Below are positions 13,853-60,731 of a stretch of DNA of 64,000 nt, one piece after another; the stretch's first letter is position 1, and each line of letters opens with the position of its first letter. Source of the stretch: Anaspis maculata (lineage: Eukaryota > Arthropoda > Insecta > Coleoptera > Scraptiidae); NCBI GenBank assembly GCA_949128115.1, contig OX421966.1, positions 61,687,416-61,751,415 of the forward strand, in the 5' to 3' direction. Made by a program: the position numbers and the translations under genes. The notes beneath the pieces are model-generated. The model did no database searches. It had not been told where the DNA came from and saw nothing but the letters and a program-made list of their open reading frames with translations.

Positions 13853-14240
13853 ATACGCTTTTTAATCACGCCGTGTGTTTTTTGCCGTCCAGCGGTAACT
13901 TTTATCGACTAGATATACTCGTACTTGGTTCAAGACCCCAGAGCAAAATGGTTGAAATCAAGAATTGCAAGCCCTCCAAACAGGGTAGAGCCAATGAAGC
14001 AGATGACCATTCTGAGTTTTTGTTTCACCATTCGTGTAACGTTTCTCCAGGAAAAGCATTTCAAGATGAGCGACCGAAAGGAGATGGTGAAAAAGGTCAT
14101 GGAAAACCCAGCTGACAATGGTGTGGATCGGCAACCGAAAGATGATGAAGACGCAGCCTCGATTGAAGATGGTGTTAACAAGCAAGAAACTTTGGCCGAT
14201 TCAGGACAAACCGAGAAACTCCAAAAATTTGAAATATCTG

Positions 14241-16223: not shown

Positions 16224-16420
16224 AAAAGAAATTACAAGATGAGCAACCGAAAGGAGATGGTGAGAAGGTCATGGCAAACCCAATTGGAAATGGCGTGAAT
16301 CGCCAACCGGATATGATGATAAGGACGCAATCAAAAACCAGATTGAAGATGGTATAAATGGGCAAGAAACTTTGACCGATTTAGGACCAGCCGAAAAAAT
16401 TCAGAAATCTGAAATTCCTG

Positions 16421-17363: not shown

Positions 17364-19866
17364 CAGAGGAATTACAAGATGAGCAACCAAAAGGAGATGG
17401 TGAAAAAGTCGTGGTAAACCCGACTGAAAATGGTGTGAATCGGCAGCCGGAAGATGATGATAACGACGGTATCGGAAACCCTATCAATGAGCAACAAACT
17501 GATTTGTACCAAGCCATTAAATTCCAGCCAAAATTTGGAATGCCTGGTAAGTTCTAGCATTTGAATGGGTCAATAGTTTCCAGTCATAAATTGTAGCTTA
17601 CTCAAAATCATAGCTCTGATTTATTGATCTCATTTTGTTCCGAGTTTTCAAATTGCTCCTCTTTGAAACAGGGCGGAGTTTCTTACCAAGCCGCTTACTG
17701 AATCAAGTGACGTAAAAATCACTTCGAAATTCGAACTTCTCGAATGCATGTTAACAAGAAATGATATCAACACATGTTATTTTCAAAAACTGAAAAATTT
17801 GCGGCATTGCGGCAATATTTTGGAAAACCGTCGAAAATTTTGGTATTTCGAAAACAATGTAATGTGAATTTTGAACTTGGAGCTATTAGTGGGTTTTCTT
17901 ATGTTCATCTTTTGAGGCCCGTGTGCAAGTTGAGACTAGAGTATAGTGGTTGGTGCCAAATTGTTCCTCAGATCATGCTGAACTAGGATCGCGATGGCGA
18001 ACATCTGAGACCCGCGACTGGGCAGCGGGGGGGGGGGGGGGGGGTAAAATGTGATGAAGACATGAAAAATGTTGAATTATGAACCGAAAGATGTACAGTG
18101 ATGGAAGTTACCATACGTATTCGCCATTTCACGCCAATGAAGGTTTAGCAAACTGATTTCAAAAATATCAATCGTTTCCAGAGATATCTTTAAAAATATA
18201 ATTCTATTTGTGGACATTTTATTGTTAAAAAAATCCAAGAATTTTGAAGTTGGAAAGATGAAAATTGACATTTAGACTATTAGAGATGTTAGGAATATAG
18301 TCGTGATTGGGGAAAATTGCTCGGCCTACTATTTCAAGAAACAAGACCTTCAACTGTTTTCACCAGCTTGGCCGCAATCTTGGATTTCCTTTTGGTGCAG
18401 TAGGCGCAAAAACGACAGGGGACTGTGAGTATGGTAGCATTAGATCATTTCAATACGGAAAGTAACTCCCCAGGGGGGGGGGGGGTAAGTTAGGTACTTC
18501 TTTGTCGAAAAAAATTGCCATTTTGTTATCTCCGGCTCCTGCCGAATCCAGAGTGCCAGTGATGGCTGATTTGGAGATGGAAGCGGCACAATACGTTTTG
18601 TACCATAAAACTTGATAGTTTGTGGAGTCAACCACAAAATTTATGATCATGAGTCAAATGGTTTATTGTTGGTGATTGGTTGAAGCAAAATGTGCTAATT
18701 TTTGGCAGAGAATGCATAACAACTGAGTTTTTAGTGAACATTACAAAGCTCTGGAGGGAGACCTGCGGCCAAGATTGGCGGCGAAAGTCATGTAACTAGT
18801 TGAAGTGAGTATGCTTTACAACAAGTAGCTATATTGAATCGTGTAGGTCGCTTGGAGACCTCTAGGGAAGTCGACAAAGATGTTTCTTCATGATAATATT
18901 TTCAAGTACAGTCCCCCCCAAAAGTCTGTGAGTGTGTGAAAAATCACCATCATAAATTTTTCGGCTCCGTGAACTGCGGTTAACCGAATACCGATTTCGA
19001 ATAAACCGAACAAATGAATTGTTCGAGTCTTGCAAATGTTCCGTGGTCGGGAGAGTTGGTCCCTAGAGAAGTGAGAAACTTTTGAAAGGGACTGTACTTG
19101 AAAATATTATCATGAAAAAACATTTTTGGCGACCTCTCCCTGGAGATCATCAAGAAACCTACACCATCCATGACAGCTACATGTTATTGAGCATACTCAC
19201 TTCAACTAGTTACATGACTTTCGCCGCCAATCTTGGCCGCAGGTCTTCCTCCAGAGCTTTGTGATGTCCACCAAAAACACAGTGTTTATGCATTTTCTGC
19301 CCAAAATGAGCACACTTTGCTTCAACCAATCACCAACAATGAACCATTCGATTCATGATCATAAATTTTGGTGGTTGACTTCACAAACTATCAAGTTTTA
19401 TGGTACGAAACGTATTGTGCCACTTCCAGCTTCAGATCAGACATCATTGGTACTGGATTCGCGCAGGAACCGGAGATAATGAAATAGCAATTTCACTCGC
19501 CAAAGAAGCAACTAACCCTCTCTGGGAAGTTACTTTTCGTATTGAAATGATCGAACGCTACCGTACTCATAGTCCCCTGTCGTTTTTGTGACTACTGCAC
19601 CAAAAGAAAATCGAAGATGGCGGCCAAGCTGGTAAAAACATATGACGGTTTTGTTCCCCAAAATAGTAGGCCAAGGAATTTTTGCCAATGACGACTATAT
19701 TTCTAACATCACCAATTGTCAAACTCTAGAGTTTCATTTTTCCATCTCCAAAATTCTTCGATTTTTTCAACAATAAAATGTTGATAAAAATTTTTATATT
19801 TTTGAAAATATCTCTGAGAATAATTGATATTTTTGAAATCGGTTTGCTGAGTTCAAACCGATTTCA

Positions 19867-24130: not shown

Positions 24131-24189
24131 CCTAGAACCACCCCTGGCGAGGGGTGTTCTTAAGAATAATTCATATCTAAGGAGGGAGT

Positions 24190-39452: not shown

Positions 39453-39470
39453 CAAAAACGTGATCATCGT

Positions 39471-39968
39471 CCACACCAAAAACCTCATGCCTACCCCCAC
39501 CATCAACACCAAAACCCTGATAGCTGCCGCCACCACCAACAACAGCCACGCCATTCTTAACAAAACGTACACCGCGGTCAAGTAACTCAGGCCGTTGAGG
39601 AAGCAGAAGAAGTAGAAATGGCCCGGAAATCCAAGATCGAGGTGGACGAAGTTTACGACATGACCGGCCATTTTCAGAACCACGATTTGAAAAAAAACCT
39701 AGGGACGATGCCCCAAAACGAGTACATAGCCCTGGTGCGAACCAAGGCCGAAAAATTCGAACCCCAAATAGCAGCGGCTTTGGCAGCGGCCGAATCCTTG
39801 AGCTTCATGGAGTTCTTCATCATCAACGAGAATTTGAACCAGTTCATCGACTATTTGGACAAGACCCACATCAAAGACAACGACGAGTTGACCAGTCAAA
39901 AAATCGAAGTCATCAAGTACATTAAAAATATGCAAGAGGAGCTGGACAAGAAACGACCGAAAGAATAA
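39471..39968 (+). pseudogene. A2: 5'-truncated family A gene
   Basis: From about 39471 the sequence follows the A1 His/Gln-rich block and C-terminal domain closely. In the A1 frame a TAA replaces a Gln codon near 39558 (A1 HPQQNV region), so the long frame is broken. An ATG at 39618 still opens 116 residues covering the whole conserved domain (VDEVYDMTGHFQNHDLKK to the KKRPKE end), with a 12-base insertion giving an extra Ala/Leu/Ala repeat. The domain itself is intact, so a short product is possible. More likely this is the 3' part of a duplicated A1-B1 block joined to retrotransposon debris. Confidence 0.7.
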
Positions 39969-40120: not shown

Positions 40121-43100
40121 ATGGTGAAAATCAAGAATTGTGAGCCCTCCAAACAGGGTAGATCCAAAGAAGCAGATCATCATTTTAACATTTTGTTTTA
40201 CCGTTCGTGTAACGTTTCTCCAGGAAAAGCATTTCAAGATGAGCAACCGAAAGGAGATAGGGGAGAGGTCATGGAAAACCCAGCTGAAAATGGTGTGGAT
40301 CGGCAACCGGAAGATGATGGAGACGCAGCCCCGATTGAAGATGGTGTTGACAAGCAAGAAACTTTGGCCGATTTAGGACAAACCGAGAAACTCCAAAAAT
40401 TTGAAATATCTGGTGAGCTTTCTATTGGACAATAGTTTTGAGTCATAAACGAGGCGATTAATTGTAGTCAACTTCAATATATAGCTTTGATTTCATCCCA
40501 TTTTGTTTCAAGTTTATAACAAGCGTCTCTCCGTAAAAGGACGGCTTTTTTAACCTTACCGCTTACGGCATCAAGTAACGTTAAAATTACTGACAGATTC
40601 GTACTTTCATGTCTATTTTGATGAGAAACGATATACCACGTGTTATTTTCAAAAACCAAAAAAATTGACAGCTGCGTCATATTTTTTTGAAAATTGTCGA
40701 AATTTTGACTTTTTCCAAAAAGCAAGTGGGGTATCTTTTTCTACTGAATCGAGCAAGGCAAACACGATTATTATCTTCATTTTCACGTTTTCTTTGTAAA
40801 TCGCAGAATGATTTGAGAAAAATCTCGTGAAAATGACGTGACGTCAAAATTCCTAGCAGATTAGTGTTGGTGATGTCAAATTCAGTAGAACAAGATTTTC
40901 CACGTTTTTATAATTTCCGAATTTGACATTTGGCAGGCAGGTTCTTGTATAACCTGTCATAATTCATCGTTTTCGAAACGGACATGTGAAATGCCGTTTT
41001 CGGTTAAAACGAACAGGAGTAATGCTATTTCCAATCAGCTGATCTTGCCACGCAGTTTTCACAAATCAACAAGAAACATCAACCAAATCAATCAATCAAT
41101 CAAACGATATTGCAAGTTGGTGCAATATTCGAGAACCAAATAATTTGAGTGCTGAGTCATATTTTTTCGAGAATATTTGAAATTTTGACTTTTTCCAAAG
41201 TGCTAGTAGGGTATCGTTTTTCACTAAATCGAGCACGGCAGACACAATTATGATCTTCATTTCCATGTTTTGTTTGAAAATCACGAAATTGATTGCGTGA
41301 AATTTCGTAAAAATGACGTAACTTGATAACTTCCACCAAAATAGTGTTGAGTTTTTGGAGTTTCTGTTTTACCATCTGCGTAACGTTTCTTCAGCAAAAG
41401 AATTACAAGATGAGCAACGGAAGAGATATGGGAAAAAGGTCATGGCAAACCCAATTGGAAATGGCGTGAATCGGCAACCGAAAGATGATAATAAGGACGC
41501 AATCAAAAACCGGATTGAAGATGGTATAAATGGGCAAGAAACTTTGACCGATTTAGGACGAGCCGAAAAAATTCAGATATCTGAAATTTCTGGTAAGCTC
41601 TAGCATTTCAGTAATCCAATAGTTTCAGTCATAATAGAGCATTATACGTTTGAAAAAAAAAATTTTTTTGATGGAATCAGAAACTATATTGAAGAATAAC
41701 TGACCCGTATTTTTTTATACGCAATGCCAGCCAAAAATCGTATCGTTTGGCCGCAATAAATAAACGAAATTCCTATATTCTGCCTATTTCTGACGTCATT
41801 TACACAGGCAGTATAGTTGGTGACTCGCTGTGACGTCAGAACTAGTTGATGTTATTTATTTATTGCGCCCAAACGGTACGGTTTTTGACCGAATAAAAAA
41901 ACGGGTCAATTATTTTTTAATGTAGTTTCCATTTCAATAAAAAAAAATTTTAGTATAATATGTACTCCATTGTAGTCTACTTGAAATTATAGCTTTGAAT
42001 GTATTTCATTTTGTTCCGAGTTCACAACAAGATCTTCGCTCTGTGACAGGTTGGCGTTTTTTAACCAAACCGCTCACAGAATCAAGTGACGTAAATACTA
42101 CTAATAGATTCGTAGTTCTTGTGTTCGTTTTAACAAGAATCGATATCCCACATGTTATTTCCAAAAAAAAAACAAAAAATTTGACACATGCGTCATATTC
42201 GAGTCCGGCCCTGGCATTTGTTGTGACAGCTGGCCTGCGTCACTGTGTGCAATAAATTGGAGAATTTCTAAGGAAAAAGTTGAAATTAATGACTCAAACC
42301 TGCACCTCATCGGAGCTGATTTGCGGAAACACTGTCGTGAGTACTTGCGTGCCCGCAATTGCGATTTTGATGCACTCAATTGATTAAAACAGCTTCGTGA
42401 AAACACCTAAAGTCGTTATCTGTGAAACCACACCATCGCGCTATCAGCAGCAGACAAAAAACACACAGACCCGTACTCGGAGAAATTCCGGGGGGGACCG
42501 CGACCGTCCACCGCGACATTTCTACCGCGCCACCCCAGTGCCCACTGGGGGCACTGGGCGTCGTCGATCTACAACCCCTGAACCCCTCCGACGGGGGAGA
42601 ATCCAGCATGTCGCTGCAGCAAGGACCAAGACAACAACAGCAGTCGGAATCGCCATGGAAAATCGTTGAGAATCGCAAAAGAGGCCATGGTAGCCCAGAA
42701 GAAAAAACACGTCAAGTAAAACAAAAAAAAATTGATGAATACATTACTTCATCAATAGTTTCAAACAGGTACGCACCGCTTGAAACATTGAACGAGGAAT
42801 CAACTACAGAAAACAAAAAAACAGTCGTAGCTGAAAAAGCACCGAAACCTGCTCCGTTTGTAGTACCTGACGTAAACGACCTATCTCTGCTGAGGAAAGA
42901 TCTTGATACCATCTGTAAAGAAGACTATACACTCCAATTGATGTATAATAAACAAGTCAAAGTTCAGCCAAAATCATTAGACGCGCACGCCAAAATACTG
43001 GAATTCTTTACCGCAAGCAAGCAGTCATGTCACACATATCAGTTGAAAAAAGACAGGCTATTTAGAGTGGTACTGCGTGGCATGCATTACTCCTGCAGTT

Positions 43101-46100
43101 GTGACGAAATAAGGGCAGCCTTGGGGGACCTTGGACACGAAGTTGTTAATCTGACAAATGTTAGACACCGCGCCACAAAGGAACTGTTATCGTTATTCTA
43201 TGTGAACCTTAAGCCAGCAGAAAACAACAAAAAGATATACGAAGTCCAATATCTATTGAATTCCAAAATCTCGTTTGAACCTCCATATAAAAAACGGGAA
43301 ATACCTCAGTGTACACGCTGCCAATCATACGGACACACAAAATCCTATTGCTTTCGGAAGCCACGATGCGTGAAATGCGGACTTGACCACTTCACAACTG
43401 AGTGCAAAAAGTCGAAGGATACCCCTGCCAAATGCGCTCTATGCAGTGAACCACATCCTGCTAACTACAAGGGCTGCATGGTGTACAAGAACAAGCAACA
43501 ACGCATGTTTCCAGCGTTGCGACCGAAACAGCTACAGCAACAAAACGCAGAGACTCCAAACGTTGAATCAAGCGGCACCTCAACATCAGCACCAAGAAGT
43601 TCAGCTAGACCTGGGGTATCGTTTGCACAGGCGTGCGAGGGTTCCCAGCAGCCGCAACAGACGAACAACTCAGGAAGTCAGCCACAAGATAATTCAAACA
43701 TCTCTCGCCTGGAAAGTCTAATCAATAAATTCATGGAACGCATGGACCAAATGCTTTCTTTGATTACTGAGCTTGTCAAAAAAATTAAGTAATGTTAACG
43801 AACATAAAAATCGCAGTCTGGAACGCCAACGGATTAGCTCAGCATACCCTCGAGCTTAAACATTTCATCGCACAACACGACCTGGACATAATCCTAATAT
43901 CCGAAACTCATTTCACCGTCAGAAGCTACATGAAGATACCCAAATACACCATATATCATACACGTCACCCAGATGGAACAGCTCACGGGGGAACAGCTCT
44001 CATTATATGAAATTCAATTAAACATCACGAAATCCCTGGATACAACACACACTACTTACAGGCCACAAGTGTAGTCATAAATGACTGGAGAGGACCCATC
44101 ACCGTCTCGGCAATTTATTGTCCTCCTAAGCACATCATTCGACACGACAGTTTCTCTGAATTCTTTGATTCACTTGGAACTCGATTTGTCGCAGCGGGAG
44201 ACTACAATGCAAAACATCAAATGTGGGGATCCAGACTTGCTACACCCCGTGGAAGAGAGCTCCTGAAAGCAATGAACAAAAATAACCTGCGCCATCTTTC
44301 TACCGGCCAACCCACATACTGGCCTACAGATCGAAACAAAACTCCGGATCTGATCGATTTTTGCGTCGTCAAGGGAGTGGCCGGTAACTACCTGAAGATC
44401 GAGTCTTGCCTGGATCTCTCCTCTGATCATTCGCCCCTCTTGGTGAGCCTGAGTGCTCAAGTAACACAAAAACCAAGAAATCCAACACTATCGTCTAGAA
44501 AAACCGACTGGCATCAATTCAGGGGCGAACTGGAGCGGGAGATTTCGCTGGACGTTTCTTTGAGGACGGCAGCGGACCTGGAGGAGGCAGTGGAATACTT
44601 AACAAGATCCATACAGCGAGCAGCATGGAACGCGACACCAGAACAATCCGAAACTTCAACATCATCGGACAAGTACCCCGAGAACATCAGAAGATTGGTA
44701 GCCATAAAAAGAAGAATCCGAAGAGAGTGGCAAAGAAATCGAGATCCCAGGTCTAAAACTCAGCTCAATAATACAACCAAAAAGTTGAGCGGCATGCTTC
44801 AGGAATATAAAGACCAATGCATCAAAAACTACCTCGAGATGCTATCACCAACGGAAGCTTCCAACTACAGCCTATGGAGAGCCACAAAAAAACTGAAGCA
44901 ACCAACTCAAACGATCCCACCAATAAGGAAGAGAGATGGAACCTGGGCACGGAGCGACACGGAAAAAGCGGAGAGGTTTGCCGAACACCTTGGAGAAGTT
45001 TTTGCGCCCTTCCCTACACAGTCGGCGGATGAGGAAGCGGCAATCCAGCAATTTCTGAGGTCGCCTGGTCGAGAATTTCTCCCAATCAAACCAATAAAAA
45101 TAAATGAACTCAAAACCGCGATGCGCAAACTCGACCAGAGAAAATCTCCAGGGTATGACCTCATCTCCGCTGGGGTCTTGAGAGAGCTGCCTACTAAAGC
45201 CCTGAAACTTATACTCTACATCTTCAATGCTGCTCTCAGGCTGGGCCACTTTCCATTCCAATGGAAGGTGGCACAGATTATCCTCATTCTGAAACCTGGG
45301 AAGACACCGGAGGCGGCCGCTTCCTACAGACCAATAAGTTTACTACCGGTGCTGTCAAAAGTGTTGGAGGGGTTGTTTTTGGCCCGGATGCGCCCTTTAA
45401 TTGCTGGTGGTGGACTCATCCCGGACCATCAGTTCGGCTTCCGACGGGGGCACTCTGCTGTCGAGCAGGTACATAGAGTGGTAGATCACATATATCGAGA
45501 TTTCGAGGCGGGAAGGAGCTGCTCGGCGGCATTTCTCGACGTATCACAGGCGTTCGACAGGGTGTGGCACGATGGTCTGCTCTTCAAAATCAAGAGACGG
45601 CTTCCGCACCAGTTCTTCAAATTCCTGGAATCATTCTTATCAGAGAGAACTTTCCAAGTGAGGATCCAGCAGCACCTCACAGACCTATACCCCGTGGGGT
45701 CGGGGGTTCCGCAGGGCAGCATTTTGGGGCCGGTTCTGTATGCCCTGTACACAGCTGATCTTCCCTCGATGGCCGGAGTCACCGTGGCGACTTACGCCGA
45801 CGACACCGCAATCCTGGCATCGGATAGAAACCAGGCAGCTGCATCGCGGAGGCTGCAAAGTAGTCTGGATGAGGTGCAGAGGTGGATGCTGAAGTGGCGC
45901 ATAACGGCGAACGCAACGAAGTCGACACATGTCACCTTTACATTGCGGCATGATGCTTGTCCACCGGTGACACTGGGAGGATGTCCTTTACCACAGGCAG
46001 ACAGTGCAAAGTACCTGGGACTACACCTAGATAGACGGCTGACCTGGCAAAAACATGTCTGGACAAAGAGGAAACAGCTGGGTATAAGAGTGAGGCAGAT

Positions 46101-49100
46101 GGACTGGCTGATCGGAAGAAGATCCAAGTTATCCATGGAAAACAAACTGATCTTGTACAAGGTGTCGCTAAAACCCATCTGGACTTACGGGATCCAGTTG
46201 TGGGGGTCTACATGTAACTCCAACATCGAGATACTGCAGAGATTTCAGTCAAAAACCCTAAGATCAATTTTGAATCCACCTTGGTATACAACAAACAAAG
46301 AAATCCACCAATATTTGGACATTGAAGAAGTCAACGCAGTGATAACAAGATTGAGCCAATCGTACATCAGTCGCCTGGACGGCCACCCGAATTCTCTAGC
46401 GAGGAATCTCTTGAGGGTCTCAGGGAACAGAAGACTTAAGAAGTGTAGACCGATGGACTTGCCTGCGCGATTTTTGTGATCCGCCGTTTCACGTTGAAGG
46501 GCTGTGTTGTCATCAAATCAACATAAATTCGCGTTTGTGTTGTGTCTGGGTTTTTGTTGGGTGCGTCAGTGGACGGACTCCATATCAAGTCATGTAAACT
46601 GTTTTATTTTATTTTGTTGTATTGTTTATTTTATATATACATAAGTTTTACTAAATATCTTTACCGATAGATTGTAAAATATTCCACAGCTGTCAAATAA
46701 AAAAAAAAAATAAAAAAAAAATGCGTCATATTATTTTGAAAAAATTTCATAGATTATGATTTTCTCCAAAAAGCAAGTGGGGTATCTTTTTCTACTGAAT
46801 CGAGTACAGCAAACACGATTATGACCTCCATTTCCAAGTTTGGTTTGAAAATTGCGAAATTGTACAAGTGAAATCTTGTAAAAGTGACGTGGCGTGAAAG
46901 TCTCTGCCAGAATAATGTTCACGCTGTCAAATTTAGCAGAAAGAGATACCCACTTCACTTCTTTTTTCAATTTCACAATTTGACATTAGACAGGTTATTG
47001 TGACTTTGTCATAATTCACTATTTTTGTAACCACCACGGCAAGTGTAATGTGGTTTTCTATTTAAACGAACAGGAGCAATTTCATTCCAAATTTAGCTTG
47101 TCTTGTCACGCGGTTCTTACAAACTAACCAGAAACAATATTTCACGAGCGTTTTTCAAAAACCGAAAAATTTTACAGCTGCGTTTAATTTTTTTGGAAAT
47201 TGTCAAAATTTTGACATTTTCCAAAGAGCCAACGGGGTATCGTTTTTCACTAAATCAAGCACGGCAAACACGATTACGATCACTATTTCCACGTTTTGTT
47301 TGAAAATCGCAAAATATTTGAGTGAAATATTGTAAAAATCACGTGACGTGGCTACCAGAATAGTCTGAAGTTTTTGAGTTTTGTTTTACCGTTCGTGTAA
47401 CGTTTTTTCAGCAGAGGAATTACAAGATGAGCAACCAAAAGGAGATGTTGAAAAAGTCGTGGCAAACCCGACTGAAAATGGTGTGAATCGGCAGCCGGAA
47501 GATGATGATAACGACGGTATCGGAAACCCGATCAATGAGCAACAAACTGATTTGACTGATTTGGAACAAGCCATGAAATTACAGCCAAAATTTGAAATAC
47601 CTGGTAAGCTCTAGCATTTGAGTGGTTCAATAGTTTTCAGTCATGAATTGTAGTTTACTTCAAATCGTAGCTCTGATTTATTAATCTCATTTTGTTCCGA
47701 GTTTTCAAGTAGTTCCTCTTTGAAACAGGGCGGGGTTTTTTAACCAAGCCGGCCGCTTACTGAATCAAGTGACGTGAAAAATTACTTCGAAATTCGAACT
47801 TCTTCAATGCATTTCAACAATAAACGATATCACACGTTGTATTTTCAAAAACCGCAAAACTTGAAGCTATTGTTCAGTTCAGTACCGTATGATCAAAAAC
47901 TTTCCTCCTCTAGGCAGGCTGTGGCCTGGCCAAGATCAGCCTTGTTTGCCTGCCAATGGCCAGACCACAACCTACCTAGAGGAGGAAAGTTGTTGATCAT
48001 ACGGTATAGACAATACAAATAGAAAATACCATATGTGTCGTCACGGATCTTTACGGTTGCGTAGGAACCAGGCGAGTCCATCATTCAAAAAAAGGTTGGC
48101 TGATTTTTGATGCCCCAATATCCGTGACGACGGTGGTGATAACATATGGTTTTCTCTATTTGTATTGTCTATACAAAAGTATGCCCCACTTGTCATTGGA
48201 AAAAAAACTTTGACAGCTACGACATTTTCTGGCAAACTGTAAAAATTCGACGTTTTTGAAAACGAAAACTGGGTTATCGTTTTCTTACTGAATCAGGCAC
48301 GACGAATACTGATCTGGAATTGATTTTCATTGTACCTACGCGGTTCTGACTAGACAAACTGATCAATCATTTTCAAAAATCACATCGTTTGATAGAGTTT
48401 TTTCAAGTATCTCTCGTGACTAATTGGTCGGTTTCTCAACCGACTTTTGGACAAAAACAAAAAATGTTTCCAGAAACATGAATAAGCTTGTGTACAATTC
48501 AATCGCAGACGATACTCAACTTCTTTATTTCCAAAATCTTCTTCAGCTGTCACTTTTTTTTTTAAACTGTCAAAATCTGATGAAATAATACGTGACATAT
48601 ATTGCTTTTCACTGAAGCAATCACGAGCAGTACGATTCTAATCTCGATTTTCATGTCACGAGTTCCTCACGAGGAAAATTCTTCGATTTTTCGAAATGTA
48701 CACAACTTCTCAGTTTCAATTTTTTTTTAATTTGACAGCTGCGTCACTTTTTGGCGAACTGTCAAAACTCTACGTTCTCAGAAATGGCAAATGGGTTGTC
48801 GTTTCCTGTAAGACCAGAGCCAGACGATTCCGAGATCAGTTTTTATATCACGTGGTTTTCCGAAAAGAAACAATAATTGACGAATTGCAAGAGTTAAAGT
48901 TGAGCAAAAGTTTTTATCTCAAACAATGAAAAAATGTTATAGACGTGAAGCTCATGTCCAGCTTAGTACGAAACGATATCCCATTGGTCATTGTTCAACA
49001 TTGCTCAATGTGACAGCTGCGTCACTTTTTTTTTCGATCTCTAAAAAATTTCTATCTCACAGAATAAAGGGATATTATAAACTTGAAGCTTGTCTCCAAT

Positions 49101-52100
49101 TTATTATTGAGCGATATCCAACTTGTTATTTTCAGAACTGAATTCATCTGAAACGGCATTTTTTGAAAGTTTCATAATTGCCATCCGGTTCTCACGTGAT
49201 AGATTTGTCAATGTCTCAACACTCTCAACAGTTTTTGACACAAACAATAAAAAACGAAATTATTAACTTGAGGCTCAAGTCTCAAGTTCAATTTAGTCTG
49301 ACAGGATGCCCAACTTGCTATTTTCAAAACTTCTTTCATTTGACAGGTGCGTCACTACAAAAAAGCATCAAAATCCGATTTTTTCGAAAACGGCAAGTGA
49401 CAAATATCGCTTTCCACACAAAAGCCAGCACGACCAATACAATTCTGAAATAATTAAATTTCTGGTAGTTTTCACCCTTAGGAGTACAGAGAATTTATTT
49501 CCAATTTACCGTTGTCAGTAAAAACATGCAACACTGTGTACACAACATTACTTGTTATCGAGTTTTTGGTTTAACAATGCTTGTGGTCTATCAACTAAAA
49601 CTATTGATTTAGTTGAGAATAAATCTGATTCTGATCCAGCCTACTTGTAAAGACCATAAAGGCATGAAACTTCGGTATAATACCAACTACCTAACCATAG
49701 CCTACTCAACAAGCCATAATTCATCCTAGCTTTAGCGGTGAGCGTAAAAATGTCTCTAATTATGACAAAAATATGCAATTTTGTGTGTGGACTTATGAAA
49801 GTATCAGAAAAGTTGTTGGACGGAGAGGCAAAGAAAGTGATTTCAATTTTTCATTTTTTTCAACTTCATTTCTTTTCAATAATTTTTTTTTGTTCCTGAA
49901 ATGATTCGAGATTTTGGACTTAAATTTTTCATCACGGTAAATAATTGGTCAGTCCAAGAAACGCAAAATACGTGAAAAAATTGTTTGAGAAGAAATCATA
50001 TTATCCCACTTGTCATTATTAAAAACAAACTCAATTTGACAGCTGCTTCACTCTTTGGAAAAACTGTCAGAACTCGACGGTTTCGGTAACGGCCAGGGGG
50101 CCAATTTTCTACTCTTCGCAACTTTAAGAAACGTTAAGAAACGTTCGCAAGTTTGCGATTTCTGTAAATTCCAATTTTTGAGCCGTCGTTTCTTTGCGTA
50201 TGCGCATAGATGCGCACGTTTTCATACGTTTTGCTGCGAGCGGACCTGGGCCGGTGCGGGGCCAATTTTTTACTCTTCGCAATTTTAAGAAACGTTCGCA
50301 AGTTTGCGATTTCTGTAAATTCCAATTTTTGAGCCGTCGTTTCTTTACGTATGCGCATCGGTGCGCATGTTTTCATACGTTTTGCTGCGAGCGGACCTGG
50401 ACAGGCGCAAGTCACTTTGCGTATACGCTTCTATGATGAAGTGAGGTTAGGTATAAATGTTTTCAATGAAACAAACGACATTGCTGAAGGTATATGTGGC
50501 GATCATTGCGCCGAGGCAGGCGGGAAATGAGATACAGCACGGAATAACTCCACGAATGCGTCCTAATACAGGTTTCCTCAAAAGAGAGATGGAGAATCTG
50601 CGATTCCGCGCAGCTGTTTTCGGCACGTTCTGCGCACAGTGTGCCATGAGTGATCGCGCCATTTGTATTTACATTGGTCCGCCGTGTTAAAAGTGCGTTT
50701 CATTTTTTTAATTTTGAAGCCAACCATACTGGGAAAGTCGCTCAAAAATATAACGAACTTCTCAATGAATATTGCAAATGAATATTCCGCAGAGAAGAAT
50801 TTGCCAGAAAGCCATTTGATGCGCGTATACAACTATTTTCATAATGGATATATCAACGATATATGGACGTGCGCAGAAAGCACAGGGCCGCTATTCTTGA
50901 ATCGTGTGAGAGAAGTCCCTGGGAGTTTTATATAATCCGTACTACACTTCTGTAGCGAAAGTTGCCTAAAAACCACGATTTTAGGCAACATTCGCTACAT
51001 CAGTGTACTGCGGAATGTATTTTACTCCCAGGGACTTTTCTCACGCGATTCAAGAATAGCGGCCCAGGTAAATGCGTGTCCCATGTCCCACTTTTAATAT
51101 TTTTTATGGTGTATTATGGCCATCACTATAAATTTGAAGTGTTTGATGCAAAAATGTGGCCAAGTGTACCCTTGAATTAATGATACTTGATGAACTAAGC
51201 AGAAAGCTCCCTGCTGTTATAACGCTGAAGGGCTTGTGGTTCTTTTTGCTTCTTCGAGTGTCACGTCGTATTTTATGGATCCATGCTTAGGGACACATTC
51301 GCTGTATAACTTGTGGACTTGCATAGTGGCCCACAACATTTATTTCCCATAACTACTTGTGAAAACTGTATAAATACCAATAATAACACCATCAAAACAC
51401 ACGTTCGGCTTATGGAATCGGGGCAATGTTGGCACACTAGGACTGCGACGATTTACTGCGCAATCGAACGTGACGTCACGGGCCAGAAAGAGACGCTCAA
51501 TTTAGGAAACCTGTATTATATGCATTTACTCACATATAATTATTCCGTAATGAAGGATTTTCTCTTGGGGTAGATTTTTGGACACAAATAAGTAAAAACT
51601 CTAGGTCTACCAACTCTATGATTTGTGCCCAAAAATCTACCCCAAGAGAAAATCCTTCATTACTAAATCCAAATGGACAAGAATCAGAATCAAAATATAA
51701 TTATTCCTTTATTTGAACATTTTTATCGCATATTTTGATAGTTTTTAAGTAGATAAATACTGCATACTGAAACAAAGAAAAAACGTTCCAATAATATGGT
51801 GCATTTTCAGATCAGGGTAACACAGTCATACAAACTGTTATTTCGACTTCAATGGATAGCTCTTGTAGCCTCGTCAATGTAGAATCAAATTATAAAGATT
51901 GTTTAACTACAGGGTGTTTGAAAAAGCTCTAAAAAAAATTACATAAAGATAACTGAAAAATGCTGTTTTTCTTATGAATAAGTAATTTTCGTTGGTGTGA
52001 AAGTGGTGGTTGCCTTCAATTGCCATCAAAGTTTTTGATGACATTGTGTCAGTGGACCATTTATCCTCACAGAAACATTGAAATATCCTGCGACTATATG

Positions 52101-55100
52101 ACTCTGCAGTTGGTCAATTTTTTTTTCAAGAGTATTTTCAATAATTTTGCTGTAACTTTTTTTAATATAATAGGTGAATAGGTGATAAATCAGGTCAAAC
52201 TTGAAAAAATCATGGGCTATGGTGAGTGTGGTAAATGAATGTGATAATATTCAATGACTACCTCTTCCTAATGAAAAAAAAAAAAGAAAAAAAAAAGAAC
52301 TGCCCTCCAATAGGATTTGAACCCGAGATCTCTCGCATGGGAGTTCATGTCCAGCTAGCTGAGCTACTTCGCCCACGGTACGGCGCTTGGAACCTTCAGC
52401 AGGCTTAGTGTGGCTGGAATAGATAGTGCACCAATAATAATTGCAACGTTGCCGGGTCTACCATACGTTTATTTACGAAGACTCAATTCGAACATTTTTC
52501 GCTTTGCGAACAGTGGTCAAAAATTGGCAAACGGAAACGTATACGTAAATCGTCGTACGCAAATTTGCGCATACGCAACTTTACGTATATTTTCAAAAAT
52601 TGGCCCCCAGCGGTTTCGGTGGGCTATCGTTCTAGTGGATTTTCGGCAAGTTTTTATGTTGAAATAATAAAATGAGACTGAAAACATGAAGCTTAGCTTA
52701 TGAAATAACCACACAAAACCATGTCCCACTTGTCATTCAGAATTAAAAAAAAATCATTTGGACAGCAGCGTCTTTTTTTTGGAAAATTCAAAATTTGCTG
52801 TTTCTAAAAACTAAGAGTGGGTTTTCGTTTTTTTTTTTATGATCAGACACGATAGGATACTATTCCAAAGTTGATTTTAAATTTTCTTCTGGCGCAGTTC
52901 CAACGGTACCGCAATTATTATTTGATCATTTCCACTGCTGTATTTGACAGCTGCATGTTTTTTTGGAGTATCAAAAATTTACGTTTTTGACAATGGCAAG
53001 CGAGGTATCGTTTTTTGACTTGAGAGTGATCACGAGAAATACGATTCTGAAATCGAATTTCACAACCTGACCTGACAAATGAGTCACTTTCTGAACAGTC
53101 TCTCCCTAAGCATACTTTTTTTCCATTCGTTTATTCAACGTCGCGGCCTATTTCCGCAACGAGGCCTAACGCCGACGCCGGTGAATGCTTTCCTCCATTA
53201 TACCGGCAATTTTGCCTAACCCCTGTGTGTTTTAACACAGGGTAGGGATTTTTAACGACCACCAACATCGCATGGGGTCGGCACCATCGTTTGTATTTCA
53301 CGTGCTATGCGACAAACGGCGCGTCTTGCATTTAGAAAATCCGTCCCCGGCGGGGAGCGAGCCCGCGACCTCTGGTGTGGTAGTGGAGTGGTAACCATCA
53401 CCACACCACAAGCTCCTCCATACATTTTTGTTGAATTAACGTAAAATCAACGTCCATTGGTAATATAAACGTTATACATTGAACTTTCTAACGTAGCCCC
53501 AAGGTGGAAACCACTTCAACTAGGTACTCCTTTTTATTACGCCACTTCCTAACGTCAATAAAAAGATTGCTCAATTGTCCAATTTACAACGTTTGGGAAA
53601 CGTAAAAAATGATGTTGATATATCCGAAAATTTTAGCTTTACTGAAACGTTTCTCGGTTACAAATTCACTGTTGCTGGATTATTCAGGTGAATTAATGAC
53701 GTTATGGAAGCGTTTGCGAGCCAATGTATTTTTCCAAATGATTTCTGATGTTGGAAAAACCTTGAAATATAACCCTGAATCAGTTTTGCATTTTCACCAT
53801 CAAGAAAACGGAAAAGAATACTTATACAGGGTGTTCGGGTATGGTTATTACAAACTTTGAGGGATGATTTCCCATCAAAAATAAAGCCGAAAGAACAAGA
53901 AACTCATAGTCCTAAAATGCTTCCTTGAAAAGATACAGGGTGTTGAAGTTGACTTTTTCAAATCGTTTTTTCACCGTAACTTTTGAACCATCAGACGGAT
54001 TCCAATCAAATTTGATCCAAAGTTTAGTCAACTGAGTCTCCATCGAATAATAATACCACAATGCATCGAAAATTTCTGGGGGCGTAGATATTAGGAGACT
54101 GTCCTCTATTTTCGCCCCATTTTCATCTTCCCTAATTATTTTTCAAAATTGTTGATATTTTCGGATTTCACGTTCAATTTAGAAGAAAAAGTTACTCTTG
54201 CAAAATTTTGATTAGAGGCTTCATTCTCCAGATATTTGGGTTTGAAAAATCGGAAAACAACACAAAATCGCCACTTTTCAGGGCCCAAATTGTTTTTTCT
54301 GGAAAACTTCATGTTTCTCAACGAAAATGGTAGTTTATCAACTTAAAACACTCAGAAAACTCATTCCAGTTGACGAATCATAGGTTTTCTTGAATTTTAA
54401 TTTATAGGTCCAAGAAAGTGGCGATTTCGAGCAGTTTTCCAATGGTTCAATCCCAAATATCTCGAAAACCAAGCCCTTTATCAAAATTGCAATGCAAGAG
54501 TAACTTTTTCTTCTAAATTGAACGTTGAATCCGAAAATATCAATCAATGGGGTACTTGCCAATGAAACAGATTTGACTGGAAATACTTTCAATCATCAAC
54601 AAGAGTAATAAAGAGTATTTCCTGAAAATTTCTGGAAAATATATCCATTGGTTGAAAAGATTTTTTTTTTATTTTTCAAAATGTTGGTAACAGTAGGGAA
54701 ACGTCAGTGGGATTTTCATATCTGTATTTTTCAAATATTGTAATGTCACTCCAACAGTTTTTTGAGTTTCCAATCCAACAGTGCTGTTGGTTTAGTTTTT
54801 AGTATATTTGTGACGTCACAAATAAATTTTTGAAACACGCATCACGGCCGCAATTTTGGGAATTTAGGAAAAAGAAAAAATACGGGTACATTATTTTTAA
54901 TCACACTATTGATTAAGCCAATAAAAAAAATTGGGCAAGTACCCCATTATCATTATCAATTTTGGAAAATAATTAAGAAAGATAAAAATAGGGACGAAAA
55001 TAGGGGACAGTCCCTTATTATCTACGCCCCCAGATTTTTTTGATAAATTGTGGCATTATTATTCAATGAACACTCATTTGACTAAACTTTGGTTCAAATT

Positions 55101-56745
55101 TGATTGAAATCGGTCCAACGGTTCAAAAGTTACGGTGAAAAAACCATTTGAAAAAGTCAACTTCAACACCCTGTATCTTTTGAAGGAAGCATTTCAAGAC
55201 CATGAGTTTTTTGTTCTTTTGGCTTTATTTTTATTTTTAATGGGGAATCATCCCTCAAAGTTTGTAATAACCAGACCCGAACACCCCGTATAAAAGAAAA
55301 ACTGTTTTATGGTTGTATTTGCAACGTCATACTAACGTGAGATAACAGTGTTGATACATTCAAATTTTCACACGTTACCGAAACGTTACTGAATAACATA
55401 TTTGTTATCGCTGATTTATATAAGGTAATAATTCATTTGTCTTGTGTACGTTGTCATACGTTTGTGTATCAACATAATTATTGTTTTCGCACATTCCTAC
55501 AGCGGTAAAATTTATTGAATTTCAGTATTATATTTTTTTGTAGTTATTTTGACGTTAAGAAAACGTCAAAAAGCAAAATTTTGTAAAAAATCATTTTATT
55601 GTCAAATTTGAAATGTCAAAGGAACGCTAAATAACTATATTGATATACACTATGTACTTGTATCACTGTACATGTACAGTGACATGTACATGTATGTACT
55701 TGAATTTTGAAACCCTATTGAAAAGTGTTATTGTTTCTCATCACTTCTAATTTTAACAAAGATAGTGAACAATCAAATCTTACATTTTTCTTGTACTTTC
55801 AACGTCTACGGAACGTATAAAAATGCTTTACTATAAATACTTCTGAAAATGCGGTTTTTTAGTTTAATTAGCAACATCGCGGTGGGATGACATTGTTGAT
55901 ATCATACAGATTATTGAACGTTATCGAAACGTTACTGAATAACCGCTATGGCCCTTATGAAAACGCATTCATTTGCGTGTTTGTTTCCCTTCCTCAACAA
56001 TAATTGCTGAACTAGACGTCTAATGTCGCCGAAAATACCGTTATTTTTAACATAGACAGTAACGTTGGTTGAACGTTTCGAGTATGAAACGAGGTATGAT
56101 AACTTTTTGGTGATTTTTCAAACTGATATCAACGTTGAGCTGACATTAGTAAAACACAAAATATGTTACATTGACGCAATGTTATTAAAACATCATTTGT
56201 TGGATTAACTCTTGCTATCTTCAAAAATTCTAGAGTTGGGCAGCGTAGCTGTTTTCTGGAAATTGTCAAAGTCTTGACAAGCTCGAGTTCACAAGTTTTT
56301 TTGTTGTTGATCTGCTACAGTTCTCCTGCACACTTGAAGTCTGCTGAAGACCTCAAAAATAATGAATACAAAACCTCACTGATTCCTTATTTTTCATCTG
56401 TTCACAGAAGAAACCAAGAAGAAAGAATTGGAAGACTGCCAACATCTCGAAAAGGAGTTCAGGGAGAAGTTACGAGATGGAAAAATCAAGGTGTTCTCCG
56501 ACTTGATTCCGCTGGCAACGCTGATGCACTGTCCCAACATTTCCGTGGAAGACTATGTTCGTCTGCTGCAGGAAACGGCAATCAAGATGGTTGAACAATT
56601 CAGAAGCGACTGGAACCCGGCTGAAATACAGGCATGCCACGGGTTCCTCACCGAGCTGTTGGTGTTTTCGACCACTGACGTCGAAGGCTTTATGATGTAT
56701 GAACTCGAATGTGTCTACTGTATCCGTAAATTTTTAGAGCTTTAA
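40121..56745 (+). CDS. B2: five-exon gene with three phase-1 cassette exons and a helical C-terminal exon
   Basis: Predicted exons are 40121-40157, 40224-40412, 41395-41592, 47412-47603 and 56408-56745. Every junction is phase 1, all sites are GT-AG, and the total of 954 nt gives an open frame of 317 residues. Residues 1-12 are MVKIKNCEPSKQ. Residues 13-205 are three acidic, probably disordered cassettes sharing LQDEQ or FQDEQ starts and an NGV(D/N)RQP(E/K)DD core. Residues 206-317 are a helix-rich domain (CPNISVEDYVRLLQETAIKM, then TTDVEG and a YCIRKFLEL end). Intron 3 holds the Jockey-like element. Intron 4 (8.8 kb) holds MITEs and SINEs. No signal peptide or known domain is recognised. The joining of the last exon is inferred from phase and order, not from a transcript. 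Confidence 0.65.
40158..40223 (+). other. Very short, stop-free intron 1 of B2
   Basis: It is 66 nt, begins GTAGAT and ends AACGTTTCTCCAG. Its length is a multiple of three and it has no in-frame stop, so retention would add 22 residues without breaking the frame. The counterparts in B1 (66 nt) and B4 (48 nt) share this property. Confidence 0.6.
40413..41394 (+). repeat. B2 intron 2 repeats
   Basis: The same degenerate intron unit as in B1, with GACAGCTGCGTCAT near 40668 and AAACGAACAGG near 41009. A short ATCA microsatellite has expanded at 41078-41102. Confidence 0.65.
41593..42199 (+). repeat. B2 intron 3, 5' part
   Basis: Intron repeat sequence interrupted by a palindromic MITE (41637-41970). 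It ends in TTTGACACATGCGTCATATT, the retrotransposon target. Confidence 0.6.
41637..41970. mobile_element. Palindromic MITE in B2 intron 3
   Basis: GAGCATTATACG at the left faces TATAATATGTACTCC at the right. The internal arms AATCGTATCGTTTGG and CCAAACGGTACGGTTTT, and TGACCCGTATTTTTT and AAAAAACGGGTCA, are mirror images. Confidence 0.65.
42608..43792 (+). CDS. Retrotransposon ORF1, Gag-like RNA-binding protein
   Basis: From the first plausible ATG (MSLQQGPRQQQQ) the product has 394 residues. The N-terminus is basic and Gln-rich. A PRE_C2HC-type region precedes three CCHC zinc knuckles between about residues 235 and 290: CTRCQSYGHTKSYC, CVKCGLDHFTTEC and CALCSEPHPANYKGC. A Ser/Gln-rich tail and a short C-terminal helix follow. 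Jockey-clade ORF1 proteins coat the element RNA and have this three-knuckle layout. The open frame extends upstream to 42422 without an ATG, so this start is a choice. Its stop codon overlaps the ORF2 ATG. Confidence 0.88.
   Translation: MSLQQGPRQQQQSESPWKIVENRKRGHGSPEEKTRQVKQKKIDEYITSSIVSNRYAPLETLNEESTTENKKTVVAEKAPKPAPFVVPDVNDLSLLRKDLDTICKEDYTLQLMYNKQVKVQPKSLDAHAKILEFFTASKQSCHTYQLKKDRLFRVVLRGMHYSCSCDEIRAALGDLGHEVVNLTNVRHRATKELLSLFYVNLKPAENNKKIYEVQYLLNSKISFEPPYKKREIPQCTRCQSYGHTKSYCFRKPRCVKCGLDHFTTECKKSKDTPAKCALCSEPHPANYKGCMVYKNKQQRMFPALRPKQLQQQNAETPNVESSGTSTSAPRSSARPGVSFAQACEGSQQPQQTNNSGSQPQDNSNISRLESLINKFMERMDQMLSLITELVKKIK
43792..46479 (+). pseudogene. Retrotransposon ORF2 (endonuclease and reverse transcriptase) with one premature stop
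   Basis: The frame starts at the ATG within TAATG and spans 895 codons, broken by a single TGA at 44008-44010 (codon 73). The position follows a GGTALII segment where Trp is common in relatives, so a TGG-to-TGA change is plausible. An apurinic-type endonuclease covers about residues 1-225 (WNANGL, ISETHF, GDYNAKH, SDHSP). The reverse transcriptase has LDVSQAFDRVWHDGL, GVPQGSILGP and the catalytic YADD near residue 668. A downstream ATG at 44221 opens the rest of the frame. Family role: nicking of target DNA and target-primed reverse transcription. This copy should lack a complete endonuclease unless the stop is read through. Confidence 0.9.
46733..47411 (+). repeat. B2 intron 3, 3' part
   Basis: It resumes the intron repeat after the retrotransposon and runs to the TTTTTTCAG acceptor of cassette 3. 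It is very close to 16690-17363 in B1. Confidence 0.7.
47883..48006. mobile_element. 124-bp palindromic MITE
   Basis: TACCGTATGATCAAAAACTT is mirrored by AAGTTGTTGATCATACGGTA. The interior GGCAGGCTGTGGCCTGGCCA also folds. Confidence 0.75.
48007..48172. mobile_element. 166-bp palindromic MITE abutting the previous one
   Basis: TAGACAATACAAATAGAAAA is mirrored by TTTTCTCTATTTGTATTGTCTA. The middle arms GTCACGGATC and ATCCGTGACGAC also pair. Confidence 0.75.
49551..50091. other. B2 intron 4 sequence, nothing recognised
   Basis: AT-rich with no gene. It ends in a B intron repeat motif (TTTGACAGCTGCTTCAC, then ACTCGACGGTTTCGG). Confidence 0.4.
50096..50415. repeat. Direct repeat of about 161 bp, two units
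   Basis: CAAGTTTGCGATTTCTGTAA and CATACGTTTTGCTGCGAGCG occur in each unit, about 160 bp apart. They follow the left terminus of the composite insertion. Confidence 0.8.
50885..51065. mobile_element. 181-bp palindromic MITE, GGGCCGCTATTCTTGAATCG ends
   Basis: The left end GGGCCGCTATTCTTGAATCG is mirrored by CGATTCAAGAATAGCGGCCC. The central arms GTTGCCTAAAAACCACG and CGATTTTAGGCAAC also fold. A truncated relative is at 23194-23322. Confidence 0.85.
51547..51662. mobile_element. 116-bp palindrome
   Basis: TAATGAAGGATTTTCTCTTG is mirrored by CAAGAGAAAATCCTTCATTA. The arms stay paired through GGGGTAGATTTTTGG. Confidence 0.75.
52301..52378 (-). repeat. tRNA-like sequence, probable SINE head or tRNA pseudogene
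   Basis: On the minus strand the order is GGGCGAAGTAGCTCAGCTAG, an A-box-like start, then GGTTCAAATCC, a B box, then a long T-rich run on the same strand. The acceptor and T stems do not pair well and no anticodon can be assigned with confidence, so it is not called a functional tRNA. Confidence 0.5.
53112..53418 (-). mobile_element. Probable tRNA-derived SINE
   Basis: Read on the minus strand it has GGTGTGGTGATGGTTACCAC (A-box region), then GAGGTCGCGGGCTCG with CTCCCCGCC (B-box region, diverged). The body runs to GTTGAATAAACGAATGG and a short A tail. CATAC flanks both ends (53111-53115, 53419-53423). Confidence 0.55.
53430..53826. repeat. AACGT-rich sequence, left part
   Basis: AACGT or ACGTT recurs every few tens of bases, as at 55289-56210. 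The foldback 53827-55288 splits this block. Confidence 0.5.
53827..55288. mobile_element. TA-flanked palindrome, CAGGGTGTTCGGG termini
   Basis: CAGGGTGTTCGGGTATGGTT faces AACCAGACCCGAACACCCCG. TA stands at each border. Its own arms are about 109-115 bp and are separated exactly at their centre by a second element. Confidence 0.8.
53936..55173. mobile_element. TA-flanked palindrome inside the previous one, CAGGGTGTTGAAG termini
   Basis: CAGGGTGTTGAAGTTGACTT is mirrored by AAGTCAACTTCAACACCCTG, with TA on each side. The two elements share a midpoint within 3 bp (54554 and 54557). The middle holds two further inverted repeats, at about 54152-54542 and 54546-54950. Confidence 0.8.
55289..56210. 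repeat. AACGT-rich sequence, right part
   Basis: TTACCGAAACGTTACTGAAT at about 55375 recurs with one change at about 55925, about 550 bp apart. Many other AACGT motifs lie between. No gene is seen. Confidence 0.5.
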
Positions 56746-57418: not shown

Positions 57419-58497
57419 ATGGCTGATGTACCTGAAATTGAGAAAAAATGCGACCAGCCAGCAAAAGAAGTAGTTTCCGATCAAATTTTACGTGAACAGG
57501 CCAGTCTTGACGAGCTGTTGAATAACTTCAAAAAATGTTTGAAAGGTACTGCATCGGCCTCAGACAAACAAGCTCAAGTGTTGGGCTACGTCACCGAATT
57601 CTGTGCATCCGGCAAAAACAACAAAACCAGTGAGTCTCTCAGCACATTTCAAACATCAATGTCTCCCGGAACCTTAACAAAGCCAACTGAATCAACTGAT
57701 CATGATACGAAGCAATAATCTTGATCAACTCGATCAGTGTCTTGGAAGCGTACTCAAAAACTCATTCTAATCACTTGTCTGCAGGTAACGATCCTGATGA
57801 TGACTTGATTCCTGGTTCAAAACCTACTAAACCAAGGGATCGCAATGAAGCAAAACGCCCGCCTGTTACTGATGATCGGACTGATCAGAACCCTGCAAGT
57901 GGAACTGAAGAAGAAGAAGAAGAAGAAGAAGAAGAAGAAGAAGAAGAAGAAGAAGAAGAAGAAGAAGAGCAAGAAGAACAAGAAGAAGAGGAAGAAACTT
58001 ATTCTAGTCAATGGTCTGCAGATGACGAGCTTGATGACTTGTTTCCTGATCCAAAACCTATTGAACCAAGAGATCTCAATGGAAAAAAACGCCCGCCTGT
58101 TACTGATGATCAGGCTGATCAGAAGCCTGAAAGTACAACTGAAAAAGAAGCGGAAATGGACCGGAAATTCAACTTTGAAACTGAAGACATCGACGTCACA
58201 AATGTCGGCTATTATTTCCACGAAGCCTATTTGAAAAAGTGCAAAGAAACGATGCCCAAAAACGAGTTCATAGACCTGATACGATCCATGGGCAAAAAAT
58301 TTGAACCCCGAATCGAAGAAGCCGAATCCTTCGACTTCACGGAGTTCTTCATCATCGAAGAGAATCTTAGCCAGTTCATCACCTGTTTGGACACGACCAT
58401 CGTCGAAGGCAACGACGAGTTGACCAATCAAAGAAAAGCAGTCACCACGTACATAAGAAGGTTGCAAGCTGAGCTGGACGATAAACGACCGGACTGA
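57419..58497 (+). CDS. A3: two-exon acidic family A gene
   Basis: Exons are 57419-57629 and 57785-58497, joined in phase 1 through donor GTGAGT and acceptor TTGTCTGCAG, giving 307 residues. The ATG begins MADVPEIEKKCDQPAKE and is shared with A4. Residues 1-70 are helical and charged. A module SxxDDDLIPGSKPTKPRD with RPPVTDD follows, then a run of about 24 Glu with some Gln (112-141), then a second copy of the module (WSADDELDD, PRDLNGKKRPP). The conserved helical domain starts near residue 198 (MPKNEFIDL, FEPRIEEAESFDF, TYIRRLQAEL). No signal peptide is seen. Without the intron the downstream frame has no ATG, which supports the two-exon model. Function unknown. Confidence 0.82.
57906..57990 (+). 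repeat. GAA microsatellite coding for Glu
   Basis: A nearly pure GAA run of about 60 bp, then mixed GAA/GAG/CAA codons. It is absent from A4, which has only three Glu codons there. Confidence 0.85.
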
Positions 58498-58659: not shown

Positions 58660-58868
58660 ACGTATAGAGTCGAAAATATCAAAAACAAAAAGTGGCGTGT
58701 CCCAGAAGCGAATGGTACCTAAGCAGCTTGATTTGGTTTTATGGTTTGTGCAACGCGTTTTTTAGCAGAAGGTCGTCAAGACGAGCAACCGAAAGACAAT
58801 GCTGGCGGGGCCATGGCAAACCTGAATGGAAATAATGGTGTGAATGGGCAAAAATCTTCGGCTGATTG
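58660..58868 (+). pseudogene. B3: broken B gene
   Basis: It aligns with B4 but begins ACG instead of ATG (58660). The first exon runs to 58714 with donor GTACCT. A 51-base intron ends TTTTTTAG at 58765. The cassette starts at 58766 and keeps the DEQPKD and NGVNGQ motifs. It breaks off near 58868, where reverse transcriptase sequence takes over in the middle of a GCTGATT shared with B4. The lost ATG and lost donor both point to a dead copy. Confidence 0.7.
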
Positions 58869-59447: not shown

Positions 59448-60295
59448 ATGGCTGATATACCTGAAATTGAAAAAAAATGCGACCAGCCAGCAAAAGAAGT
59501 TTCCGATCAATATCTAAGTGAAACCGCTCTTGACATGCTGTTGAATCACTTGAAAAAAAGTTCGAAGGGTACTGCCTCGGTTTCAGACAAAAAAGCTCAA
59601 GAGCTTGCCAAACTCACCGAATTACTAAACTCCCGCAAAAACAACAAGACCAGTAAGTCCATCAGTAGCACATTTTGAACATCAATGTCTCCCGGAACCT
59701 TTACAGAGCCAACTGAATCAAGTGATCATGATACGAAGCAATAATCTTGATCAACTCGATAAGCGCTGTAAAAGCGTACTCAAGAACTCATTCTAATCAC
59801 TTGTCTGCAGATAACGCGCCTGATGACTTGATTTCTGGTTCAAAACCTACTGAACCAAGTGATGGCAATGAAGCAAAACACCCGCCTGTTACTGATGATC
59901 GGACTGATCAGAAGCCTGAAAGTATAACCGAAGAAGAAGAAGCGGAAATGATCCGAAAATTCAACTTCAAAGTTGACGACATCGACTTCACAAATATTGG
60001 CAAATATTTCCATGGAGCCTATTTGAAAAAGTGCAGAGAAACGATGCCCAAAAACAAGTTCATAGACCTGATGCAATCCATGGCCAAAAGATTCGAACCC
60101 CGGATCAAAGAAGCTGAATCCTTCCACTTGAACGAGTCCTTCATCATCGACGAGAATCTCAACCAGTTCATCATCTGTTTGGACACGATCATCGTCAGAG
60201 GCGACGACGAATTGACCAAACAAAGAATCGCAGTCACCGAGTACATACAAAGGCTGCAAGCTGAGCTGAACGACAAACGATCGGATCGATTTTAG
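59448..60295 (+). CDS. A4: two-exon family A gene
   Basis: Exons 59448-59652 and 59811-60295 join in phase 1 (donor GTAAGT, acceptor TTGTCTGCAG) to give 229 residues. The N-terminal 68 residues start MADIPEIEKKCDQPAKE. The middle has one module (APDDLISGSKPTEPSDGNEA, HPPVTDD) and a short Glu run. The C-terminal domain from about residue 120 shows IDFTNIGKYFHGAYLKKC, MPKNKFIDLMQSMAKRFEP and YIQRLQAELNDKR. It is the most compact intact member and best shows the family core. It lies about 950 bases after A3 with B3 and the RT relic between. Unknown function. No secretion signal is seen. Confidence 0.82.
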
Positions 60296-60448: not shown

Positions 60449-60731
60449 ATGTATAGAGTCAAAAATATCAAAAACACGAAGTGGAGTGCCCCAGATGAGA
60501 ACGGTAAGCAGCTTGATTTGGTTTCATGGTTCGTGCAACGCGTTTTTTCAGCAGAAGTTCGTCCGGAAGATGAGACGGCGGGTGGGCAACCGGAAGATGG
60601 GGCGGGTGGGCAACCAAAAGATGATGCTGGCGAGGCCTCGGCAAACCTGAATGGAGATAATGGAGTGAACGGGCAAGAACCTCCGGCTGATTCTGGACAA
60701 GCCAGAAGATCCCGGAAAAGTGAAACTCCTG
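60449..60731 (+). CDS. B4: first two coding exons of a B gene
   Basis: The first exon 60449-60503 encodes MYRVKNIKNTKWSAPDEN plus one base. A 48-base intron (GTAAGC to TTTTTTCAG) leads to cassette 60552-60731 (180 nt, phase 1 at both ends, donor GTGAGT). The cassette encodes a GGQPEDGAGGQPKDD repeat and NGVNGQEPPADSGQ. If the intron is kept the frame stays open and ends at a TAG just after the donor. Later cassettes and a terminal exon are not seen before the window ends, so the gene is incomplete here. Confidence 0.6.

Follow-up and report, generated by a model that had tools for sequence, protein, structure and literature searches.

A putative orphan gene with a linker of duplicated symmetric exons in a BAG-like gene cluster of Anaspis maculata

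Introduction

A short start exon, three similar open cassettes and a longer last exon follow one another in the genome of the beetle Anaspis maculata, which raises the question of whether these pieces form one protein gene (B), how the cassettes were multiplied and whether they are used in varying combinations. We analysed a window of 64,000 nucleotides around them (contig C6, 61687416-61751415) and searched the 758-Mb assembly of 50 contigs that contains it. The original prediction had proposed a spliced gene with symmetric 1-1 cassettes placed before a helical domain, and this proposal appears backed by a paralogous gene (E), by repeats within the introns and by an AlphaFold2 model. Overall, B is in our view probably a genuine protein gene that has a single close paralog (E) and no relatives found elsewhere, and whose linker was enlarged by exon duplication.

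Exon structure of the B gene

The B gene model lies on the plus strand. It comprises exon 1 (40121..40157, 37 nt, phase 1 at its end, MVKIKNCEPSKQ), three 1-1 cassettes, B1 (40224..40412, 189 nt), B2 (41395..41592, 198 nt) and B3 (47412..47603, 192 nt), and a last exon (56408..56745, 338 nt) that codes for a 112-aa helical domain and the stop. The exon sum (37+189+198+192+338 = 954 nt) gives 317 aa plus a stop, so that the 318 codons originally counted include the stop codon; the predicted borders, phases and stop-free frame proved exact. All introns (4/4) run from GT to AG and every junction is in phase 1. The common phase of the cassettes carries no independent weight because all three descend from one exon; the independent facts are that each cassette copy stayed open and that the start and last exons fit the cassette phase. 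When each exon was shuffled 1000 times with its dinucleotides preserved, the proportion that stayed open in frame by chance was 2.3% for B1, 2.0% for B2, 1.1% for B3, 1.4% for the third cassette of an upstream array (A3) and 0.1% for the last exon. The cassette of the E gene, which is GC-richer, remained open in 13.4% of such shuffles.

Intron 1 is 66 nt long in A and B and 48 nt in E, a multiple of three without an in-frame stop in each case, so exon 1 and cassette 1 could be a single unspliced exon in the same frame. The stretch of the downstream D unit that matches intron 1 contains a stop (read by eye). The last intron of B spans 8.8 kb and contains many repeats.

By the charge-hydropathy rule, the cassette part of B, which has a low hydropathy, is predicted to be disordered and the last exon to be folded. 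The AlphaFold2 model of the last exon has five helices, with a mean pLDDT of 71 from single-sequence input, which gives it limited confidence. The gene plan would be a short start exon, at least one symmetric 1-1 cassette exon coding for a charged linker with low hydropathy, and a single helical last exon of 112 aa. We interpret the product as a charged linker that bears a helical domain and whose length is set by the number of cassettes (~60 residues in E and ~193 in B) and may be the functional variable.

A one-cassette paralog beyond the window

The E paralog is, in our judgement, the best evidence that B is a gene. Using the B last exon as a query against the genome, we found two matches with an E-value of at most 0.001, namely the exon itself and a copy 12.2 kb to its right (C6 61756002-61756337; window coordinate 68587-68922), which is 50% identical over 112/112 residues. 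This copy is preceded by an AG (window coordinate 68586-68587) and connects in phase 1 with the E cassette, which in turn joins the ATG exon. The E cassette gene is made up of exon 1 (60449..60503, 55 nt), its sole cassette (60552..60731, 180 nt, 1-1), both on the plus strand, and a last exon of 338 nt (window coordinate 68588-68925), which lies outside the window, 4.6 kb past its right end. With every join in phase 1, these 55+180+338 nt give 190 aa and a stop. Exon order, phases and last-exon length are the same in E and B, whereas the cassettes number one and three, respectively.

Between the last exons of B and E, 99 of 333 sites are different, with neither an indel nor a stop; when substitutions of this amount were introduced at random, the frame remained stop-free in 4.6-5.7% of trials. 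The dN/dS ratio of this pair is 0.73 (interval 0.40-1.34), so selective constraint at the protein level is modest, and this pair does not prove it.

Cassette copies and their divergence

An HMM search found eight cassettes within the window and none outside it in 280 kb. Five cassettes besides those of B had been predicted, and the same total of eight was recovered; those at 17364 and 60552 are open, but those at 14051 and 16224 are frameshifted and that at 58766 is truncated. The latter belongs to the D unit (58766..58867, plus strand) and is cut off by a reverse-transcriptase fragment (58868-59287, read by eye). The five open cassettes differ in length solely by multiples of three. As genome queries, the cassettes matched at this locus only (E-value of at most 0.01). 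This result has a limit: the cassettes of E and D escaped the B1 query and were found by the E query, and other strongly diverged cassettes may escape as well. The cassettes had also been described as paralogous acidic modules. They are indeed mutual copies, and B1, B3 and E are acidic (net charge -11, -12 and -7), but B2 has a net charge of +1.

A dN/dS comparison across the cassettes had been proposed as a check. Among the five open cassettes, 9 of the 10 ratios are below 1 (the pairs are not independent of each other), and the bootstrap interval lies wholly below 1 in two pairs, A3-B2 (0.33) and B1-B3 (0.35; 0.15-0.75), and just reaches 1.01-1.02 in two others. On the other side, the B2-E pair has a ratio of 1.28 and the A/B pairs look neutral.

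Array A and the spread of the cassettes

The upstream array A, also on the plus strand, consists of exon 1 (13948..13984), cassette 1 (14051..14240, 190 nt, frameshifted by +1), cassette 2 (16224..16420, 197 nt, frameshifted by -1) and the open cassette 3 (A3; 17364..17546, 183 nt). The length changes of A1 and A2 occur in none of the other cassettes with sequence at these places, and hence most likely arose in A. The A and B blocks match from 13302 and from 39469, respectively, with 83.5% identity over 1.9 kb, and 32732-32899 matches 48171-48333 at 89.9%. A genome search with the last exon found no separate last exon for array A.

Pooled over the A/B cassettes, we counted 6 changes on 111.6 synonymous sites and 30 on 446.4 nonsynonymous sites; the number of synonymous changes in A3-B3 is 2 or 1, depending on the alignment used. 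Unlike older pairs such as B1-B3, these cassettes show no trace of purifying selection after they split and seem to have evolved neutrally. For the B array since that split, 18 random substitutions produced no stop in 46% of trials, so that an open frame is weak evidence by itself. The A/B identity is 0.942, 0.909 and 0.951 in the cassettes and 0.859, 0.813 and 0.883 over all flanks of the three blocks; we set this difference between exon and intron divergence aside as proof of selection, given that the flanks partly align non-orthologous repeat copies.

The introns were copied along with the exons, as indicated by blastn, in which blocks of ~1.0-1.2 kb match around neighbouring cassettes. They share an intronic repeat of ~250 bp, of which two strong copies are found in each of three inter-cassette introns (one copy being split by a LINE) and four copies in the A1-A2 intron. 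Decayed copies persist in the last B intron as far as 56284, which leaves 124 nt to the last exon. There, 11 matches of at least 10 bits were obtained (9 on the plus strand), compared with none in 30 shuffles of the region and one (10.5 bits) in ~38 kb of other window DNA, from which 32601-32999 was left out as it carries a known repeat copy. The same repeat precedes the E last exon (67647-68302). Weak copies also occur downstream of gene G, at window coordinates 80397-86059 (L004, L006), where neither a cassette nor a last exon was found.

The LINE just mentioned (42200..46720, ends approximate, plus strand), of the X-element/Jockey type, lies inside the repeat copy between B cassettes 2 and 3. 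It is flanked by a 12-nt target duplication, and the empty site is seen in array A.

The modules were multiplied by tandem duplication of a cassette together with its intron, most likely by unequal crossing over between the intron repeats. Later, a block with the 3' end of the BAG-like gene A, exon 1 and three cassettes was duplicated as a whole, after which copy A most likely gained its two frameshifts, and copy B is still open.

Alternative readings of the locus

The original prediction went beyond a spliced gene and saw in the cassettes a possible source of many isoforms through alternative inclusion. Array A might, in such a case, add a second promoter and a supply of cassettes for the same last exon. 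We regard this reading as rather unlikely. The predicted safety of skipping is arithmetically right, since 8/8 subsets of the B cassettes stay in frame from B exon 1 (16/64 from A exon 1), and symmetric exons made by duplication are argued, in a passage of PMC6335736, to be prone to skipping. However, any set of symmetric exons would behave in this way, and this is no evidence of splice variants. The cassette splice sites (donors GTGAGC in B1 and GTAAGC in B2 and B3), compared without splice-site scoring, are so closely similar that no cassette is marked as regulated, and they would fit constitutive inclusion as well as skipping. Furthermore, inclusion of A1 or A2 would disrupt the reading frame, and the view of the further cassettes as an isoform reservoir is weakened by the fact that 3/5 of them are broken. 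If B and E were instead relics, once coding and now untranscribed, one would understand that the A and D arrays are already broken, that the A/B comparison looks neutral, that B would have stayed open since the A/B split by chance alone in about half of the trials and that a LINE and other repeats sit within the introns. Yet both genes keep all exons open, together with splice sites and phases, and their last exon is free of indels at a nucleotide difference of 30%, which makes such a decay of B and E unlikely in our view.

The cassettes could also be a 3' alternative of the BAG-like gene upstream, exon 1 of D or E skipping the BAG exon and splicing to a cassette, so that there would be one gene only. 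In both BAG-like genes, D and E, the phase at the end of exon 1 is 1, as it is for the cassettes, and the ATG of the cassette gene follows an AATAAA of the upstream gene by only ~100 nt in A, B and E (by eye). Against this, exon 1 of gene A ends in phase 0 and B', a BAG-like remnant before B, has no 5' part, yet cassettes follow both; in addition, an ATG stands at the place matching the start of B exon 1 in A (13948) and E (60449), being lost in D (by eye). We therefore hold a single gene to be improbable. It is very improbable that repeats and unrelated open frames came together by chance here: the cassettes are repeats whose phases agree by descent, and the last intron with its 8.8 kb holds many repeats, but a paralog in which these exons recur with order and phase unchanged already largely refutes such an assembly, and the shuffle controls on exons and intron repeats speak against it as well. 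The reading of B as a gene with a duplicated linker, which would be transcribed and spliced, remains the one we prefer.

Relatives and comparison with known systems

The 317-aa B chain had no homolog at an E-value of at most 10 among 1415 candidates drawn from 5.8 billion proteins, nor had the D/E proteins among 7448 candidates from that protein set. As a control that the set includes insects, the LINE protein gave 3407 matches among 7974 scored; among the matches listed, one names its organism, Cryptotermes secundus (52%). The best LINE relative is only 57% identical, so the species and its near kin may be missing from the protein set. In viral contigs searched for the D/E proteins, 33 stretches matched a pattern and none was confirmed. 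Rfam gave no match at gathering thresholds, NCBIfam none above its cut-off, and the last exon matched PDB sequences at chance level only (E-value of at least 0.55). Within the literature searched, we found no description of the cassette gene.

In schistosome micro-exon genes (MEGs), exons are very small, 36 nt or less; the B/E cassettes, unlike these, measure 180-198 nt, and only exon 1 (37 nt) comes near MEG size. The likeness lies in the symmetrical exons of the B gene: the coding region of MEGs is described, in part of PMC4350168, as consisting largely of symmetrical exons and as showing accelerated evolution. Another parallel is tandem duplication of symmetric exons, Patthy's symmetrical modules, which, as stated in a section of PMC6335736, can be added or removed with the frame kept. 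B1-B3 resemble them in being multiples of three, with equal phases at both ends, and in being copied in tandem with their introns, whereas A1 and A2 depart from this symmetry by their frameshifts. What sets the cassettes apart is that they code for a charged linker, probably disordered, that no relatives of their gene were found, and that their copy number is one versus three between paralogs in one cluster. Growth by duplication of symmetric exons is already a well-known mechanism, and the interest of the locus therefore rests on the orphan gene and the BAG-like cluster around it. Within ~60 kb, a paralog with one cassette, a gene with three and a decayed copy that likewise has three form a natural series of the birth and growth of a linker; at the thresholds applied, none of them turned up in other parts of the genome.

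The surrounding BAG-like genes

BAG-domain proteins are nucleotide exchange factors of Hsp70, according to a portion of PMC4753570. As in these proteins, the neighbours A, B', D, E, F and G have BAG-like helical domains, and one or more genuine BAG genes lie nearby. On the plus strand of the window are gene A (10825..13795; exons 10825-10854 and 11225-13795), coding for 866 aa with the BAG-like domain at the C terminus; B' (39469..39968), a 5'-truncated copy of gene A that keeps this domain; gene D (57419..58497; 57419-57629 and 57785-58497), which has an acidic linker; and gene E (59448..60295; 59448-59652 and 59811-60295). When PF02179 was run on whole proteins, B' scored 15.3, D 18.7 and E 21.3 bits and A was unlisted, all below the curated cut-off of 23.4. 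On excised domains, 4/4 of A, B', D and E matched, with 15.8 bits for A and a best E-value among the four of 2.1e-4, and these four neighbours can be counted as having the BAG fold.

Unlike BAG-domain proteins, the last domain of the cassette gene shows no sequence similarity to BAG. The last exon gave no match to PF02179; its comparison with BAG sequences yielded shuffle P values of 0.32 to 1.0 over 8 comparisons, and hhalign a probability of 1.4% (E-value 0.038 over 18 columns). The idea that this exon is a diverged BAG domain found no support in its sequence.

The cassette genes B and E each directly follow a BAG-like gene or its remnant within the gene cluster, a position that suggests a possible role near Hsp70 chaperones. 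It is quite unlikely that we are dealing with a new orphan family, arisen in a co-chaperone cluster, in which splicing as well as genomic cassette number (one in E, three in B) would vary the length of the charged linker and a single last exon would serve both array A and array B upstream of it.

Some further features of the region should be noted. BAG-type frames extend over ~225 kb of contig C6 (window coordinates -54.8 kb to 170.5 kb), and a long minus-strand frame at ~149-153 kb contains several weak BAG-like repeats. In D and E, the end of the intron and the start of exon 2 (57721-57854 and 59747-59882) are ~74% identical to coding DNA of gene A (12306-12437); this stretch includes the splice acceptor, so that coding DNA would have become intron, or the reverse. 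Gene D carries 30 GAA repeats, coding for poly-glutamate, at 57907-57996. A satellite of nine 296-bp units, 92% alike, occupies 28676-31337 and has inverted relatives at 23499-24200.
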